Positions 1 to 4,233 of a DNA stretch of 64,000 nt are shown here, piece by piece. Location of the stretch: NCBI GenBank assembly GCA_016764915.1, contig JAESQY010000144.1, forward strand, positions 1-64,000. Reading direction: 5' to 3'. Origin of the DNA: Aliivibrio sp. (lineage in GTDB: Bacteria > Pseudomonadota > Gammaproteobacteria > Enterobacterales > Vibrionaceae). The position numbers and the translations under genes were made by a program. Under the pieces are notes generated by a model. That model saw only the letters and a program-made list of their open reading frames with translations, did not search any database and was not told where the DNA came from. Position 1 is the first letter of the stretch, and each line of letters begins with the position of its first letter.

Positions 1-719
1 AATGGAATTCTATGTTCTTCGTGTACAACGAATAGATCAACGACAGTATGATCTATCTCAACCCTCTCTAGTACACTAGACGTAAGGATCTTTTTTCCCA
101 TTCGACGAAATTCTCTCTTGGCTACTCGTTCGCCTTTCTTTGCTGCTAATACTTCGAACGGTGTTTTCTTTTTAACCCGTACCCTTACAGACTCGTATTT
201 GGGATATGGATATTTTGTACCGTGCGTTAAGTTATATTGTCGAACTTTACGCTTAACTCGCCGATGTGCCGAGTTGATATTGATCTTTCGGCCAGAAATA
301 ACTCTTTCAACTGCTTGTTCCATTATCGAATCAGCAATTGGTGAAACTTTAGCCCCTCTATTTCCTCTACTCTTAAAGTCAGGTGCTAAACTAACCGGGT
401 TATAACCAGAGGCTCTGAAAACTAACCACCACCTGTACATTGATATCGCACTTGGAATATTCCTGTCGTGTAACCGTTGTAGTGAGACGCGATGTGGTTC
501 GATGGTCTTGGGAATGATTTTTTCGCACTTACTGGCTAAATAACGAAAAATACTTAGACGAAAATTAATCTGAGTGGCTATATTGTCAGGAAATGCGGAT
601 ATATCTTGATATGTTGCTTCGTCGACATCGTTGGTATCAACAACCCTATCATTAGGCTCAAGCTTTTCTTGCTGAAGTGCTGACTTCCTATGAAAACTCG
701 AAAATGATTTTTTAGGCAT
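1..719 (-). CDS. tnsB: TnsB, Tn7-like DDE transposase (N-terminal part, runs off window)
   Basis: The frame is open from an ATG at 719 to the window edge: 239 codons, about 40% of a usual TnsB. The N-terminal half is basic, with helix-rich stretches typical of the TnsB DNA-binding domains. The last residues hold an I-D-H-T motif followed by V-V-D-L, which matches the first catalytic Asp of the RNase H-fold DDE core. TnsB binds the end repeats and joins the 3' ends to target DNA. Its start lies inside the end of tnsA (8-base overlap), so the two are translationally coupled. The proposed start follows only a weak Shine-Dalgarno sequence, which suits coupling. The second Asp and the Glu of the triad are off-window. 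Confidence 0.9.
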   Translation of the reverse strand, partial: MPKKSFSSFHRKSALQQEKLEPNDRVVDTNDVDEATYQDISAFPDNIATQINFRLSIFRYLASKCEKIIPKTIEPHRVSLQRLHDRNIPSAISMYRWWLVFRASGYNPVSLAPDFKSRGNRGAKVSPIADSIMEQAVERVISGRKININSAHRRVKRKVRQYNLTHGTKYPYPKYESVRVRVKKKTPFEVLAAKKGERVAKREFRRMGKKILTSSVLERVEIDHTVVDLFVVHEEHRIP

Positions 720-1401
720 AGCAACCCAATTCAAATTCAGACTCGAGTGATATTGGGGTCTCTAAGCTAGTTTGGAGTAAGTTTCGAGAGAGCAAATTGC
801 ACAGGAATGGTAATATTTTTCTTCCATTTAGGCCAAGCTGTAGTCCTAAACTCTTTGCGGTTTGCGTACCATTCATTTTTAAGGTGGAAAGGAGAGTTTG
901 ATGGACGTCGTTCAAGTTATCTCTTGAGGCATATCGATGCAAAAGCTTAAGGTTGCTAAATATGACCTCATCCAGTATTTCTTCCTCTGTAACCAGTTCT
1001 AGCTCCAAACCCAACTCAAACGCGCCTTGGACTTTTGCTTCCCATTCACACTGAAATTCCTCTTTTGAGCTTTCCATATCGGACTTTACTTCGTACAACT
1101 TATATTCACCGGTATCAAATTGAACTAGAAAGTCTGGAACATAGGTATGGGCCTTACCATTTAGACAGTATGAAAATCTTATCGGCTGAGAACAAAAGCG
1201 AACGATACTTGACTCGAAATCAAAATGATAACAAGCGGCACATTCTAAAAAAGATTCTACCGTAACTCTTTTTCCCATCTTAGCACTGACGTAACGGTGT
1301 ATGTTTTTTCCACGTGACTTAGTTAGGTTTCGAGCTGGGGTATCAAATGCACTTTCAAGTGCAACCAGGGTGGCAGTAGAAGCAGAAAGTAGAGCAGACA
1401 T
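712..1401 (-). CDS. tnsA: TnsA, Tn7-like transposon endonuclease
   Basis: A 229-residue protein of the length usual for I-F3-type TnsA. The restriction-enzyme-like catalytic residues are visible: Glu53 in a SFLE motif, Asp90 in PDF and Lys106 in EVK. A conserved FCSQPI segment (69-74) precedes the nuclease core. The C-terminal third (about 140-229) fits the TnsA_C domain that contacts TnsC/TnsB. TnsA cuts the 5' ends of the element so that, with TnsB, it moves by cut-and-paste. It is the first gene inside the element and overlaps tnsB by 8 bases. Its ribosome-binding site (AAGAGG, 7 bases before the ATG) sits within an inverted-repeat arm described separately. Confidence 0.93.
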   Translation of the reverse strand: MSALLSASTATLVALESAFDTPARNLTKSRGKNIHRYVSAKMGKRVTVESFLECAACYHFDFESSIVRFCSQPIRFSYCLNGKAHTYVPDFLVQFDTGEYKLYEVKSDMESSKEEFQCEWEAKVQGAFELGLELELVTEEEILDEVIFSNLKLLHRYASRDNLNDVHQTLLSTLKMNGTQTAKSLGLQLGLNGRKILPFLCNLLSRNLLQTSLETPISLESEFELGCYA

Positions 1402-1404
1402 AAA

Positions 1405-1462
1405 ATTGCCTCTTCACGATTTTGTCGTAAACTTACATAAGTTTAGACCATGAAGAGGCAAT
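1405..1462 (-). promoter_or_regulatory. Inverted repeat able to sequester the tnsA ribosome-binding site in read-through RNA
   Basis: Perfect 12-base inverted arms lie at 1405-1416 and 1451-1462, with a second 8-base pair of arms between them (1428-1435 and 1438-1445). On the tnsA strand the 3' arm contains the AAGAGG ribosome-binding site just ahead of the start codon. RNA entering from guaC would hold both arms and could hide this site. RNA started at the candidate internal promoter (about 1433) would lack the outer 5' arm. This layout resembles the fold-back protection known in IS10 and IS50; the function here is inferred. Confidence 0.7.
1428..1445. promoter_or_regulatory. 8-2-8 palindrome, candidate operator for tnsAB
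   Basis: TAAACTTA, two bases, then TAAGTTTA form a perfect dyad overlapping the proposed -10 and start of tnsA. Its size suits a small dimeric repressor such as the Xre-type regulators carried by some Tn7-like elements. No regulator gene is visible in the window. It would also form the inner stem of the longer fold-back structure. Confidence 0.45.
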
Positions 1463-1467
1463 ATCAA
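1440..1467 (-). promoter_or_regulatory. Candidate tnsA promoter inside the transposon end
   Basis: On the minus strand TTGATA (1462-1467) and TAAACT (1440-1445) are separated by 16 bases, a plausible sigma-70 pair with a weak -10. The -35 hexamer lies within the innermost TnsB-type repeat. The -10 coincides with one arm of an 8-2-8 palindrome. The promoter could therefore be repressed both by TnsB and by a dimeric regulator. The expected start is near 1433. Confidence 0.5.
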
Positions 1468-1528
1468 ATTATGGCTGTACCAAATATCAATATATGGATG
1501 TAAATATCAATTTATGGTTGTTTCAACA
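1460..1528 (-). repeat. Transposon right end with three TnsB-type binding repeats
   Basis: Three direct repeats begin at 1460, 1483 and 1503, each reading AATATCAA, two A/T bases, TATGG, any base, TGT, then A/T. The outermost is followed by TTCAACA ending at 1528, so the element begins TGTTGA when read inward. Spacings are 23 and 20 bases. As I recall them, the ends of Tn6677-type I-F3 elements have the same form: a TGTTGA terminus and closely packed ACAACCATAAATTGATA-like sites at the right end. Confidence 0.87.
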
Positions 1529-1533
1529 GTTAT
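1529..1533. other. Candidate 5-bp target-site duplication (one copy)
   Basis: GTTAT lies immediately outside the terminal ACA. Tn7-like elements duplicate 5 bp on insertion. The second copy would flank the left end outside the window, so this is inferred from position alone. Confidence 0.5.
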
Positions 1534-1551
1534 TTCCGAATCGAGTCAGGT

Positions 1552-2595
1552 TTACTCTTTTCCGTAAACGTTGTTCTCTTGCTCTTGTACTCTGATGAAA
1601 GTAGTACGCTTTGTTAGCTCTCTAAGCCTTGCTGCGCCTACATATGTACATGTTGAGCGTACGCCACCAAGGATGTCAGAAATCGTGTGATGAACACTGC
1701 CACGGTATGGTAATAGCACGGTTTTTCCTTCAGCTGCGCGGTATTTAGCAACGCCACCTGAGTGCTTCGCCATTGCGCTTTCTGAAGACATTCCATAGAA
1801 TTTCATGAACTGCTTGCCATCTTTTTCTACAACATCGCCACCGCTTTCAGTGTGACCCGCTAGCATGCCGCCAAGCATCACAAAATCTGCGCCGCCGCCG
1901 AATGCTTTAGATACGTCTCCAGCACATGAACAGCCGCCATCGCCAATAATACGACCACCAAGACCGTGGGCGGCATCTGCACACTCAATGATTGCAGAAA
2001 GTTGTGGGTAACCAACACCGGTTTTAACACGCGTTGTACATACAGAACCTGGGCCGATACCCACTTTAACGATATCAGCACCAGCAAGAATAAGTTCTTC
2101 AACCATATCACCAGTAACCACGTTACCAGCACTGATCACCTTGTCTGGGAATTCAGCACGAACACGCTCAACGTATTGAACTAGGTGCTCTGAATAGCCA
2201 TTAGCGATATCGATACAGATGAAGATTAGTTCATCTGAAAGCGCCATCACATCTTTGGTCTTTTGAAAGTCAGCATCAGAAGTACCGGTTGATACCATTG
2301 AATTGTTCAGTGTCTTTTTATCATTACTGCTGACAAAACCTGACCAATCTTCAACGGTGTAATGTTTATGAATAGCCGTCATTACACCGTGTTCAGCCAA
2401 TGCTTGAGCCATTGCGAAACTACCAACAGAATCCATATTTGCTGCAATTACTGGAACGCCTGACCACTTGCGACCGCTGTGCTTAAACGTAAATTCACGT
2501 TCAAGCTCTACTTGAGAACGGCTTTTTAGAGTAGAACGCTTGGGACGGAAAAGTACATCTTTGAAACCAAGCTTAAGTTCTTGTTCGATACGCAT
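1552..2595 (-). CDS. guaC: GMP reductase
   Basis: A 347-residue enzyme, the same length as E. coli GuaC. It converts GMP to IMP with NADPH in the cytosol, returning guanine nucleotides to the common purine pool. The (beta/alpha)8 IMPDH/GMPR fold is recognisable, with the catalytic cysteine in the GPGSVCTTR motif and the glycine-rich GDGGC phosphate-binding segment. It lacks the CBS insert of true IMP dehydrogenase. The start follows AAGGA by six bases. No terminator lies between its stop codon and the transposon 23 bp on, so its mRNA should read into tnsA. Its 3' end is the attachment region of the element; the gene is intact. Confidence 0.96.
1575..1613 (-). other. Predicted guide-RNA target for the transposon in the guaC 3' end
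   Basis: I-F3 CASTs insert about 48-50 bp from the PAM-distal edge of a 32-base protospacer. Counting back from 1528 puts such a target in the final codons of guaC, roughly here. Several PAM registers are possible and none is a clear CC. The exact protospacer is not determinable without the spacer, which is off-window. Confidence 0.35.
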
Positions 2596-2662
2596 GTGAA
2601 ATCCTTATTAATAATCGTAAAGAATTACCAAAATTGGGTCTTTCGATGGATGTCATATTTAT

Positions 2663-2685
2663 TCTGGTTACCATTTTTAACCAGA
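2663..2685 (-). other. Hairpin in the guaC leader
   Basis: Inverted arms TCTGGTTA and TAACCAGA flank a 7-base loop, between the leader terminator-like hairpin and the guaC start. A shorter alternative pairing (ACCAT at 2670 with ATGGT at 2685) overlaps it. Role unknown; it could influence leader folding. Confidence 0.4.
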
Positions 2686-2700
2686 TGGTGAATTACACGC

Positions 2701-2734
2701 AAAAAAAAACCGAAGCGTTGGTAGACGCTCCGGT
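2701..2734 (-). terminator. Terminator-like hairpin at the very 5' end of the guaC leader
   Basis: On the guaC strand a 10-bp stem (ACCGGAGCGT with ACGCTTCGGT, one G-U pair) with a 6-base loop is followed by eight or more T residues. It is a textbook intrinsic terminator, but it begins within a base or two of the predicted guaC transcription start. It may be an attenuator, a 5'-protective hairpin, or a relic. On the plus strand it has a mismatch and only four T residues. Confidence 0.7.
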
Positions 2735-2769
2735 TTTCAGCATTATACGAGCAGATTTTAAGAATGCAA
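2735..2769 (-). promoter_or_regulatory. Probable guaC promoter
   Basis: TTGCAT (2764-2769) and a perfect TATAAT (2742-2747) on the minus strand are 16 bases apart. The expected start near 2735 abuts the terminator-like hairpin. The leader to the guaC ATG would be about 140 bases. Confidence 0.65.
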
Positions 2770-2863
2770 CCTAGATTGCCTGGTTTATAGGTTTTTTATT
2801 TTGCAAAGTGACGCAACCGATTGCTATTTATTGATATGACAGAATTATTAAAATGCGACTTTT

Positions 2864-2897
2864 TTACCAATCCGCTGGCGTTTTTCTATGATATGAT
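2864..2897 (+). promoter_or_regulatory. Possible gsk promoter
   Basis: TTACCA at 2864 is followed after 17-23 bases by overlapping TATGAT motifs (2887-2892 and 2892-2897). A start near 2900 would leave a leader of about 25 bases ahead of gsk. The -35 is weak. Confidence 0.4.
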
Positions 2898-2928
2898 CCG
2901 CGAAAATCCCCAACGACTATGACCAAAG

Positions 2929-4233
2929 ATGAAATTTCCTGGCCAACGTAAGTCTAAACATTATTTTCCTGTTAGTGCTCGAGATCCACGTGCAACTCAA
3001 GCTCAACAATCTCCAAAACTCACGCGCCCATACCCTATCGGTGTAGGACAGACCATTGTTGATATTGAAGCCAAAGTTGATGCTGATTTTTTACATCGTC
3101 ATAATTTAAGTAAGGGACACTCCCTTGTTCTTGAAGAGAGTAAAGCGGATGCGTTATATCTAGAGCTTAAGTCACGCGGCTTGATTTCTCATGAATACCC
3201 TGGCGATACTATCGGCAACACACTTCATAACTACTCTGTTTTAGCGGACAGTAAATCGATGTTGTTGGGAGTGATGAGCAAAGATCTTCAAATTGGATCA
3301 CATGCCTATCGTTATCTTTGTAAGACGTCGAGCAGAATGAATCTTGATCATCTTGAAGCCGTCGATGGACCTATTGGTCGTTGTTACACTTTGATTTCAG
3401 AAGATGGAGAGCGAACGTTTGCCATCAATGAAGGTAAGATGAATCAACTGAACCCTTCTAGTATTCCTACCCCTGCATTTAAAAAAGCATCCGCACTGGT
3501 TATCTCTTCCTATTTGGTTCGTGGACAAAAAGGCGACCCAATGTTGGACTCTGTGATGAAGTCCATTAAAGCGGCCAAAGCGAACAACGTACCTGTGGTA
3601 TTAACTCTTGGTACGAAGTACGTAATTGAAGGCAATAGTGAATGGTGGCAAGCCTTCTTAAAAGAGCACGTTACCGTTGTAGCGATGAATGAAGAAGAAG
3701 CAGAAGCATTAACTGGTGAGTCTGATCCGCTGCTTGCCGCTGATAAAGCGCTGGAGTGGGTAGATTTGGTTCTATGTACAGCGGGGCCTTTAGGATTGTA
3801 TATGGCGGGTTATACTGATGACGAATCAAAGCGTGAATCTAGCCTTGAATTGTTACAGGGTAGCATTGCCAATTTTAATCAGTATGAATTCAGCCGAGCA
3901 ATGGTGAAAGAGTCTTGTGAACATCCGATTAAAATCTATTCACATATATCTCCATTTATGGGGGGGCCGGTTGAAATTAAAAACACCAACGGCGCTGGAG
4001 ATGCCGCGCTCTCCGCTTTAATTCATGATATGTCTGCCAACTTATACCATAAGCGTAACGTACCGAATTCAAGCAAACATAAAGCTGAGTTTTTAACCTA
4101 CTCATCCTTATCTCAAATCTGTTGTTATTCAAGTCGTGTCTGTTATGAAGTGTTAATTCAGCACTCACCTAGGTTGTCGAGAACACTGCCTGAGCGTGAG
4201 GACAGTTTAGAAGATACATCTTGGGAAAAGTAA
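2929..4233 (+). CDS. gsk: Inosine-guanosine kinase
   Basis: A 434-residue PfkB/ribokinase-family kinase, the same length as E. coli Gsk, beginning MKFPG like that protein. It phosphorylates inosine and guanosine with ATP to IMP and GMP in purine salvage. The C-terminal family signature NGAGDAA (about residues 355-361), which supplies the catalytic Asp and the anion hole, is present. It is divergent from guaC, so both nucleotide-interconversion genes share one 333-bp control region. There is no good Shine-Dalgarno sequence. A 10-codon frame starting at 2919 overlaps the start in another frame. Confidence 0.95.
   Translation: MKFPGQRKSKHYFPVSARDPRATQAQQSPKLTRPYPIGVGQTIVDIEAKVDADFLHRHNLSKGHSLVLEESKADALYLELKSRGLISHEYPGDTIGNTLHNYSVLADSKSMLLGVMSKDLQIGSHAYRYLCKTSSRMNLDHLEAVDGPIGRCYTLISEDGERTFAINEGKMNQLNPSSIPTPAFKKASALVISSYLVRGQKGDPMLDSVMKSIKAAKANNVPVVLTLGTKYVIEGNSEWWQAFLKEHVTVVAMNEEEAEALTGESDPLLAADKALEWVDLVLCTAGPLGLYMAGYTDDESKRESSLELLQGSIANFNQYEFSRAMVKESCEHPIKIYSHISPFMGGPVEIKNTNGAGDAALSALIHDMSANLYHKRNVPNSSKHKAEFLTYSSLSQICCYSSRVCYEVLIQHSPRLSRTLPEREDSLEDTSWEK

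Follow-up and report, generated by a model that had tools for sequence, protein, structure and literature searches.

A probable type I-F3a CRISPR-associated Tn7-like transposon beside guaC in an Aliivibrio genome and its phenazine-type cargo

Right end of the transposon and its attachment gene

The window, meaning the whole stretch of DNA that was analysed, comprised the first 64 kb of contig C120 and started at contig base 1. It originated from a draft genome of Aliivibrio sp. with 4.38 Mb on 206 contigs, which was 94.8% complete and 2.1% contaminated. Bases 1-1528 contained the beginning of tnsB, the complete tnsA, three TnsB-type repeats and a terminal ACA; GTTAT and guaC came next. These had been named, beyond an intact guaC, in a preliminary description of the window, and each of them was found:

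3..719, minus strand: tnsB, N-terminal 239 codons; runs off the contig start and continues on C10 from 8488 down to 7391
712..1401, minus strand: tnsA, 229 aa; Pfam TnsA-like N-terminal domain, E 4.7e-11
1462..1478, minus strand: TnsB-type end repeat 3
1485..1501, minus strand: TnsB-type end repeat 2
1505..1521, minus strand: TnsB-type end repeat 1, outermost; the first site lies at base 8 of both ends
1526..1528, no strand: right terminus ACA (TGT read inwards)
1529..1533, no strand: target-site duplication GTTAT; second copy at C42:94551-94555
1552..2595, minus strand: guaC, the attachment gene, coding for GMP reductase; intact, with an IMPDH/GMP reductase match at E 3.7e-78
1580..1611, minus strand: guaC protospacer for the atypical spacer at C10:5688-5719
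1612..1613, minus strand: PAM CA on the protospacer strand

TnsA matched the NCBIfam TnsA-like model with E 1.6e-20, yet stayed under the model cut-off (73.5 vs 110 bits). Among the 13 relatives' loci with a tnsA match, identity was 64-93% in 11 and 35-36% in two. The TnsB piece in the window had no Pfam or NCBIfam family match on its own but shared 77-89% identity with the initial portion of the TnsB of four relatives, with which the two TnsB pieces were compared separately. When aligned with the stop-to-stop TnsB frames of L126, L135 and L125, the part in the window spanned residues 15-252/253 and that on C10 spanned 253/254-617. Against TnsB of L131, the pieces covered residues 15-249 and 249-615. 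For the three right-end repeats, 0.02 were expected by chance in the window and none of 100 shuffles gave three, the scan pattern for this estimate being derived from the three repeats themselves.

Distribution over three contigs

The transposon was spread over three contigs: C120 with the right end, C10 with the tns and cas genes, and C42 with the left end and the cargo. The first 102 bases of the window recurred near the end of C10. This end formed a perfect 96-nt inverted repeat (foldback; L003 8393-8676), and the window started at its turning point, so the break inside tnsB is read as an assembly fault. We attribute the foldback itself to a chimera formed in assembly or amplification. At the other side of C10, the first 101 bases recurred at four other places in the genome, and the last 216 bases of C42 had no match elsewhere in the genome and no contig link. 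From these two observations, the middle of the element between C42 and C10 is taken to be absent from the assembly. The element thus comprised at least about 25.5 kb. Our guess is that the 101 bases are the edge of an insertion sequence; the frames beside one of the other copies were not transposase-like by eye.

The stretch L003 183-352 was 95% identical to a stretch on C142 (L026) that encodes a portion of a 140-aa protein, for which the helix-turn-helix match was weak. The C142 stretch adjoins frames with a transposase-type helix-turn-helix, and the gene for the 140-aa protein persists as a remnant upstream of tniQ on C10.

Transposition and CRISPR genes

C10 carried tniQ (392 aa), cas8/5 (640 aa), cas7 (353 aa), cas6 (199 aa), xre (68 aa), tnsC (332 aa) and the rest of tnsB. 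Together with the window, tnsA, tnsB and tnsC were all present, as was the tniQ-cas8/5-cas7-cas6 operon that characterises type I-F3. Family matches were obtained for TniQ, the Csy2-like part of Cas8/5, Csy3, Csy4 and TniB/TnsC; Xre was recognised by HTH_3. All eight machinery genes were open frames with lengths as in relatives or PDB chains, tnsB being counted as two pieces. Neither cas1 nor cas2-3 was among the genes named on C10, the stretch that this statement covers up to the gap toward C42. In a PDB sequence search, the best matches of TnsC and of the C10 TnsB piece were chains named Tn6677. Cas8/5 and TniQ matched 6lnb and its sister entries best, with the Tn6677-named Cas8/5 (6pig) close behind. 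The 6lnb group presumably represents the TniQ-Cascade (Tn6677) system of V. cholerae.

The relatives' loci comprised all 20 other genomes of the family with a cas7 of at least 45% identity; one at 42% was left out. TniQ (L003 600-1778) was 50-63% identical to TniQ in 19 of the 20, and L132 had no match. Unlike TniQ, cas8, cas7 and cas6 reached about 86-91% identity in five relatives, a difference in sequence identity that suggests recombination within the tniQ-cas operon. Three loci, L128 (G306), L129 (G341) and L130 (G243), had cas8, cas7 and cas6 that were 62-90% identical and xre that was 82-98.5% identical to the genes of this element. Their tnsC was 43-44% identical, tnsB about 36%, and tnsA, where inside the stretch, 35-36%; the guaC guide was of the same kind. 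Judged by these identities, the three loci are read as differing from this element by module exchange.

Guide RNA unit and its target in guaC

Between cas6 and xre, two type I-F repeats flanked one 31-nt spacer. This one-spacer array was followed by an atypical unit in which two diverged repeats enclosed a 32-nt spacer. All four repeat copies fold into short hairpins; Rfam had no match on C10. The atypical spacer matched guaC at 24 of 32 bases, and the runner-up place in the first 3 kb had 14 mismatches. The eight mismatches fell on guide positions 3, 6, 9, 12, 18, 19, 24 and 30, and position 19 was the sole one outside codon third positions. The transposon end lay 51 bp from the protospacer.

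The normal 31-nt spacer had no convincing target, with only weak partial matches among plasmids and phage records. Three plasmids were matched, two of them in traO of Stutzerimonas (20 bases at 95%, E 7). Twenty-two phage records were matched; among the 10 listed, with E values from 3 to 10, were two Vibrio phages (24 bases at 87.5%).

Guides of the same family were present in 18 of the 20 relatives' loci, and guaC lay within the fetched stretch in 10. Counting the window, there were 19 guides (15 distinct) and 11 guide-target pairs, 10 from relatives; these pairs are related to one another. The ten relatives' loci outside the pair count were eight with a guide but without the target in the stretch, and L139 and L142, in which no guaC-type guide was found. 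Guide position 19 was T here and C in the other 14 distinct guides. The PAM was CN in all 11 pairs. The spacing between transposon end and protospacer was 47-51 bp in nine pairs and 67 bp in one; no end was recognised in the remaining one.

Mismatches in the 11 pairs were on codon third positions in 73 of 80 cases. They affected 41/55 sixth positions, 32/55 of the other third positions (3, 9, 15, 21, 27) and 7/242 positions elsewhere. The bases at every sixth guide position are described as flipped out in class 1 effectors in the available text of PMC12774636. In the window, all five of these positions (6, 12, 18, 24, 30) were mismatched, and a special sixth-base design was considered and dropped. 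Codon wobble explains the pattern: since mismatches were mostly on codon third positions, likewise in the ten relatives, those at sixth positions need no special explanation. The third-position mismatches are in line with a review that, in the part available, notes that mismatch tolerance leaves room for wobble variation (PMC11406308). The 11 pairs, with mismatches nearly confined to codon third positions, form a natural data set on permissible guide drift.

Left end and uninterrupted site

The left end was located on C42, where GTTAT directly preceded TGTTGAAACAACCATAA and three TnsB-type sites lay within 105 bp. Both ends of the transposon opened with this identical 17-base start and held three sites each. 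The preliminary description had proposed an I-F3 CRISPR-associated Tn7-like transposon by guaC whose remainder and cargo lay beyond the window start. This proposal was borne out within the same genome: tnsC, tniQ, cas8/5, cas7, cas6, the short array and the atypical guaC-matching spacer that it anticipated were on C10, and the left end with its GTTAT, together with cargo, was on C42.

The C42 flank left of the insertion contained a phage-integrase-type remnant (L021 5856-6416, C42:93855-94415; Pfam E 4.5e-11); a terminator-like stem was also seen by eye left of the left end. When the flank was searched against 61 genomes, 14 matched, mostly weakly or at other places, and in G018 and G023 the match lay right beside guaC. 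In these two genomes the flank and guaC were contiguous and formed the uninterrupted site. Alignments of the joined flanks crossed the junction, with gaps, in all five relatives tried; conservation of the left part was good in G018 and G023, less so in G033, G009 and G028. Because the C42 flank and guaC span the junction in relatives, both outer ends belong to one ancestral site. The DNA adjoining guaC in G018 and G023 resembles the flank with the integrase remnant, and this spot beside guaC may already have served an earlier mobile element.

Phenazine-type cargo

The part of the element on C42, from the left end to the contig end, was 15.5 kb long. After a few small genes, a phenazine-type cluster of 14 genes on a single strand started about 2.4 kb inside the left end, with a pathway length of about 13 kb. 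The gene order was:

1-5: DAHP synthase, YhbP-like, adenylation protein with carrier domain, FabD-like, EhpG-like (aldehyde dehydrogenase/LuxC type)
6-10: EhpF-like, PhzG, PhzF, small protein, PhzE-like
11-14: PhzD, PhzA/B, SDR, VOC protein like EhpR

PhzA/B was assigned with E 3e-72 (PHZA_PHZB) and the isochorismatase with E 1.7e-36. PhzF scored over the NCBIfam cut-off; PhzG was the best match yet stayed under it. The PhzE-like protein combined chorismate-binding and glutamine amidotransferase domains and was assigned by domains and position, its best PDB match, 3r74, being named only as an anthranilate/aminobenzoate synthase component. EhpF was the best PDB match of the EhpF-like protein (E 4e-95), and EhpR was third among the PDB matches of the EhpR-like protein (E 1.8e-11). 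The EhpG-like gene was assigned by position and 35% identity to a Pantoea aldehyde dehydrogenase gene, which we take to be the one called EhpG. The core of PhzA/B, D, E, F and G was thus present, as were the EhpF-like, EhpG-like and EhpR-like genes of griseoluteic-acid-type clusters. No methyltransferase or exporter of the Pantoea type was recognised in the sequenced C42 cargo, where the sequence stops shortly upstream of the EhpR-like gene. As the sequenced cargo offers no such counterpart, the phenazine pathway may be incomplete or different. The G+C content of the cargo, 37.9% compared with 40.8% for the rest of the window, says little.

In searches of 329 genomes of the family, EhpG-like genes occurred in four (E 1e-40), this genome included. 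The other three lacked a cas7 match at E 1e-30, and none of the 72 other genomes with such a cas7 held an EhpG-like gene. EhpF-EhpG-like pairs of 37-45% identity occurred in family members without a cas7 match at this threshold (L122, L123 and L124; G095, G031 and G007). EhpF-like genes (E 1e-80) were present in three of 394 genomes drawn from the order, including this one. The EhpG-like query had no relative in a genome-contig collection.

Interpretation and alternatives

The locus is best explained by a type I-F3a Tn7-like CRISPR-associated transposon (CAST) of the Tn6677 kind that carries a phenazine-type cluster and is inserted 51 bp past a protospacer located at the 3' end of guaC. We give this reading a probability of about 0.92; it includes the step, which we infer, that C42 and C10 belong to one element. 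Attachment to guaC, the Xre regulator and genes closest in sequence to Tn6677 would place it in type I-F3a. The available text of PMC11406308 gives guaC or yciA attachment and an Xre regulator as traits of this type and lists Tn6677 among its members. The machinery is an ordinary member of a known family; the cargo is unusual.

Decay of the element to a defective, no longer mobile state is unlikely. The assembly break inside tnsB and the T at guide position 19, where the 14 other distinct guides have C, would fit such a state. However, the eight machinery genes are open and of expected length, if tnsB is taken as two pieces, and both ends and the duplication are intact.

Still less probable are tandem I-F3 or Tn7-like elements at guaC, with a distal one comprising the C42 left end and the phenazine genes, and a near one to which the right end, the cas genes and tnsABC belong. 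In that case, the phenazine genes would be carried by another transposon. Tn7-like elements are known to stack at their attachment sites, and C42 and C10 are not joined in the assembly. Against this arrangement, the same GTTAT stands on both outer flanks and fits the uninterrupted site. Moreover, beyond the six sites of the two ends, no end-like site with up to three mismatches was found in C42:94000-110064, C10 or bases 1-3000 of the window. The genome contains one cas7 (E 1e-30) and, at the DNA level, one copy of the tnsA region. The genome-wide end-repeat scan gave 17 loose matches vs 9 for a reversed control pattern; one of the 17 was the left end, and since two of the three left-end sites escaped the pattern, the scan is weak evidence against a tandem.

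A Tn7-like element without CRISPR guidance, with TnsD/TniQ finding guaC, would suit tnsA and tnsB alone but has a negligible probability and was already refuted: cas8/5-cas7-cas6 and a guaC-matching spacer are present on C10, TniQ is closest to that of the solved TniQ-Cascade, and the second end, whose lack the preliminary description had named next to that of cas genes as speaking against its proposal, is on C42.

For the preferred reading of one guide-directed element, a course of events can be proposed by analogy with studied relatives. The atypical crRNA from the repeat-spacer-repeat unit would load TniQ-Cascade (Cas8/5, Cas7, Cas6), which would locate guaC behind a CN PAM. TnsC would be recruited, and TnsA and TnsB would excise the element bounded by three TnsB sites per end. 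The excised element would be joined beside guaC with a 5-bp duplication, leaving the gene unharmed. Xre probably represses the system until entry into a new cell, and the one-spacer normal array may target mobile DNA. The cargo could let the new host make and resist a griseoluteic-acid-type phenazine.

That a guide-RNA-directed transposon serves here as the vehicle for a whole antibiotic pathway, including its own self-resistance, is a view towards which we lean slightly. If it is true, it would explain how phenazines of the griseoluteic-acid type can turn up sporadically in this family; one such compound came from a marine Vibrio (PMC3175449). According to the available text of PMC8649781, Tn7-like transposons are reported to carry siderophore and nonribosomal-peptide genes as well as genes for defence, resistance and central metabolism. 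A term search of the main text of this cargo survey did not return 'phenazine', and searches of the open-licence literature found no Tn7-like or CRISPR-associated transposon reported to carry a phenazine cluster. The element adds to the known cargo a near-complete-looking phenazine pathway with a self-resistance-type gene, on a CRISPR-guided transposon.

Comparison with known systems

The sequenced cargo had colinear counterparts for 14 of 14 genes, at 28-63% identity, in a phenazine cluster on the E. coli plasmid NZ_CP076707.1. The D-alanylgriseoluteic acid (ehp) type cluster on a plasmid of Pantoea agglomerans had counterparts for 10 of the 14 at E 1e-4. The FAD oxidoreductase of the E. coli cluster and the MFS transporter and methyltransferase of the Pantoea cluster had no counterpart in the sequenced cargo. 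Both clusters are located on plasmids, and the 27- and 31-kb stretches around them list no tns or cas gene in gene tables that are incomplete.

I-F3 elements with a guaC-type guide occur elsewhere in the family, for example in Vibrio sp. Isolate34, V. hangzhouensis, V. atypicus and Vibrio sp. 99-70-13A1. The closest PDB relatives of TnsC, TnsB, Cas8/5 and TniQ were those of Tn6677 (VchCAST) of V. cholerae, a type I-F3a system, which we take to be the HE-45 guaC element. According to the available text of PMC6360697, the HE-45 element is inserted downstream of guaC, as is the one described here, and its 36 kb carry a restriction-modification system as cargo, whereas the Aliivibrio element carries a phenazine-type cluster.
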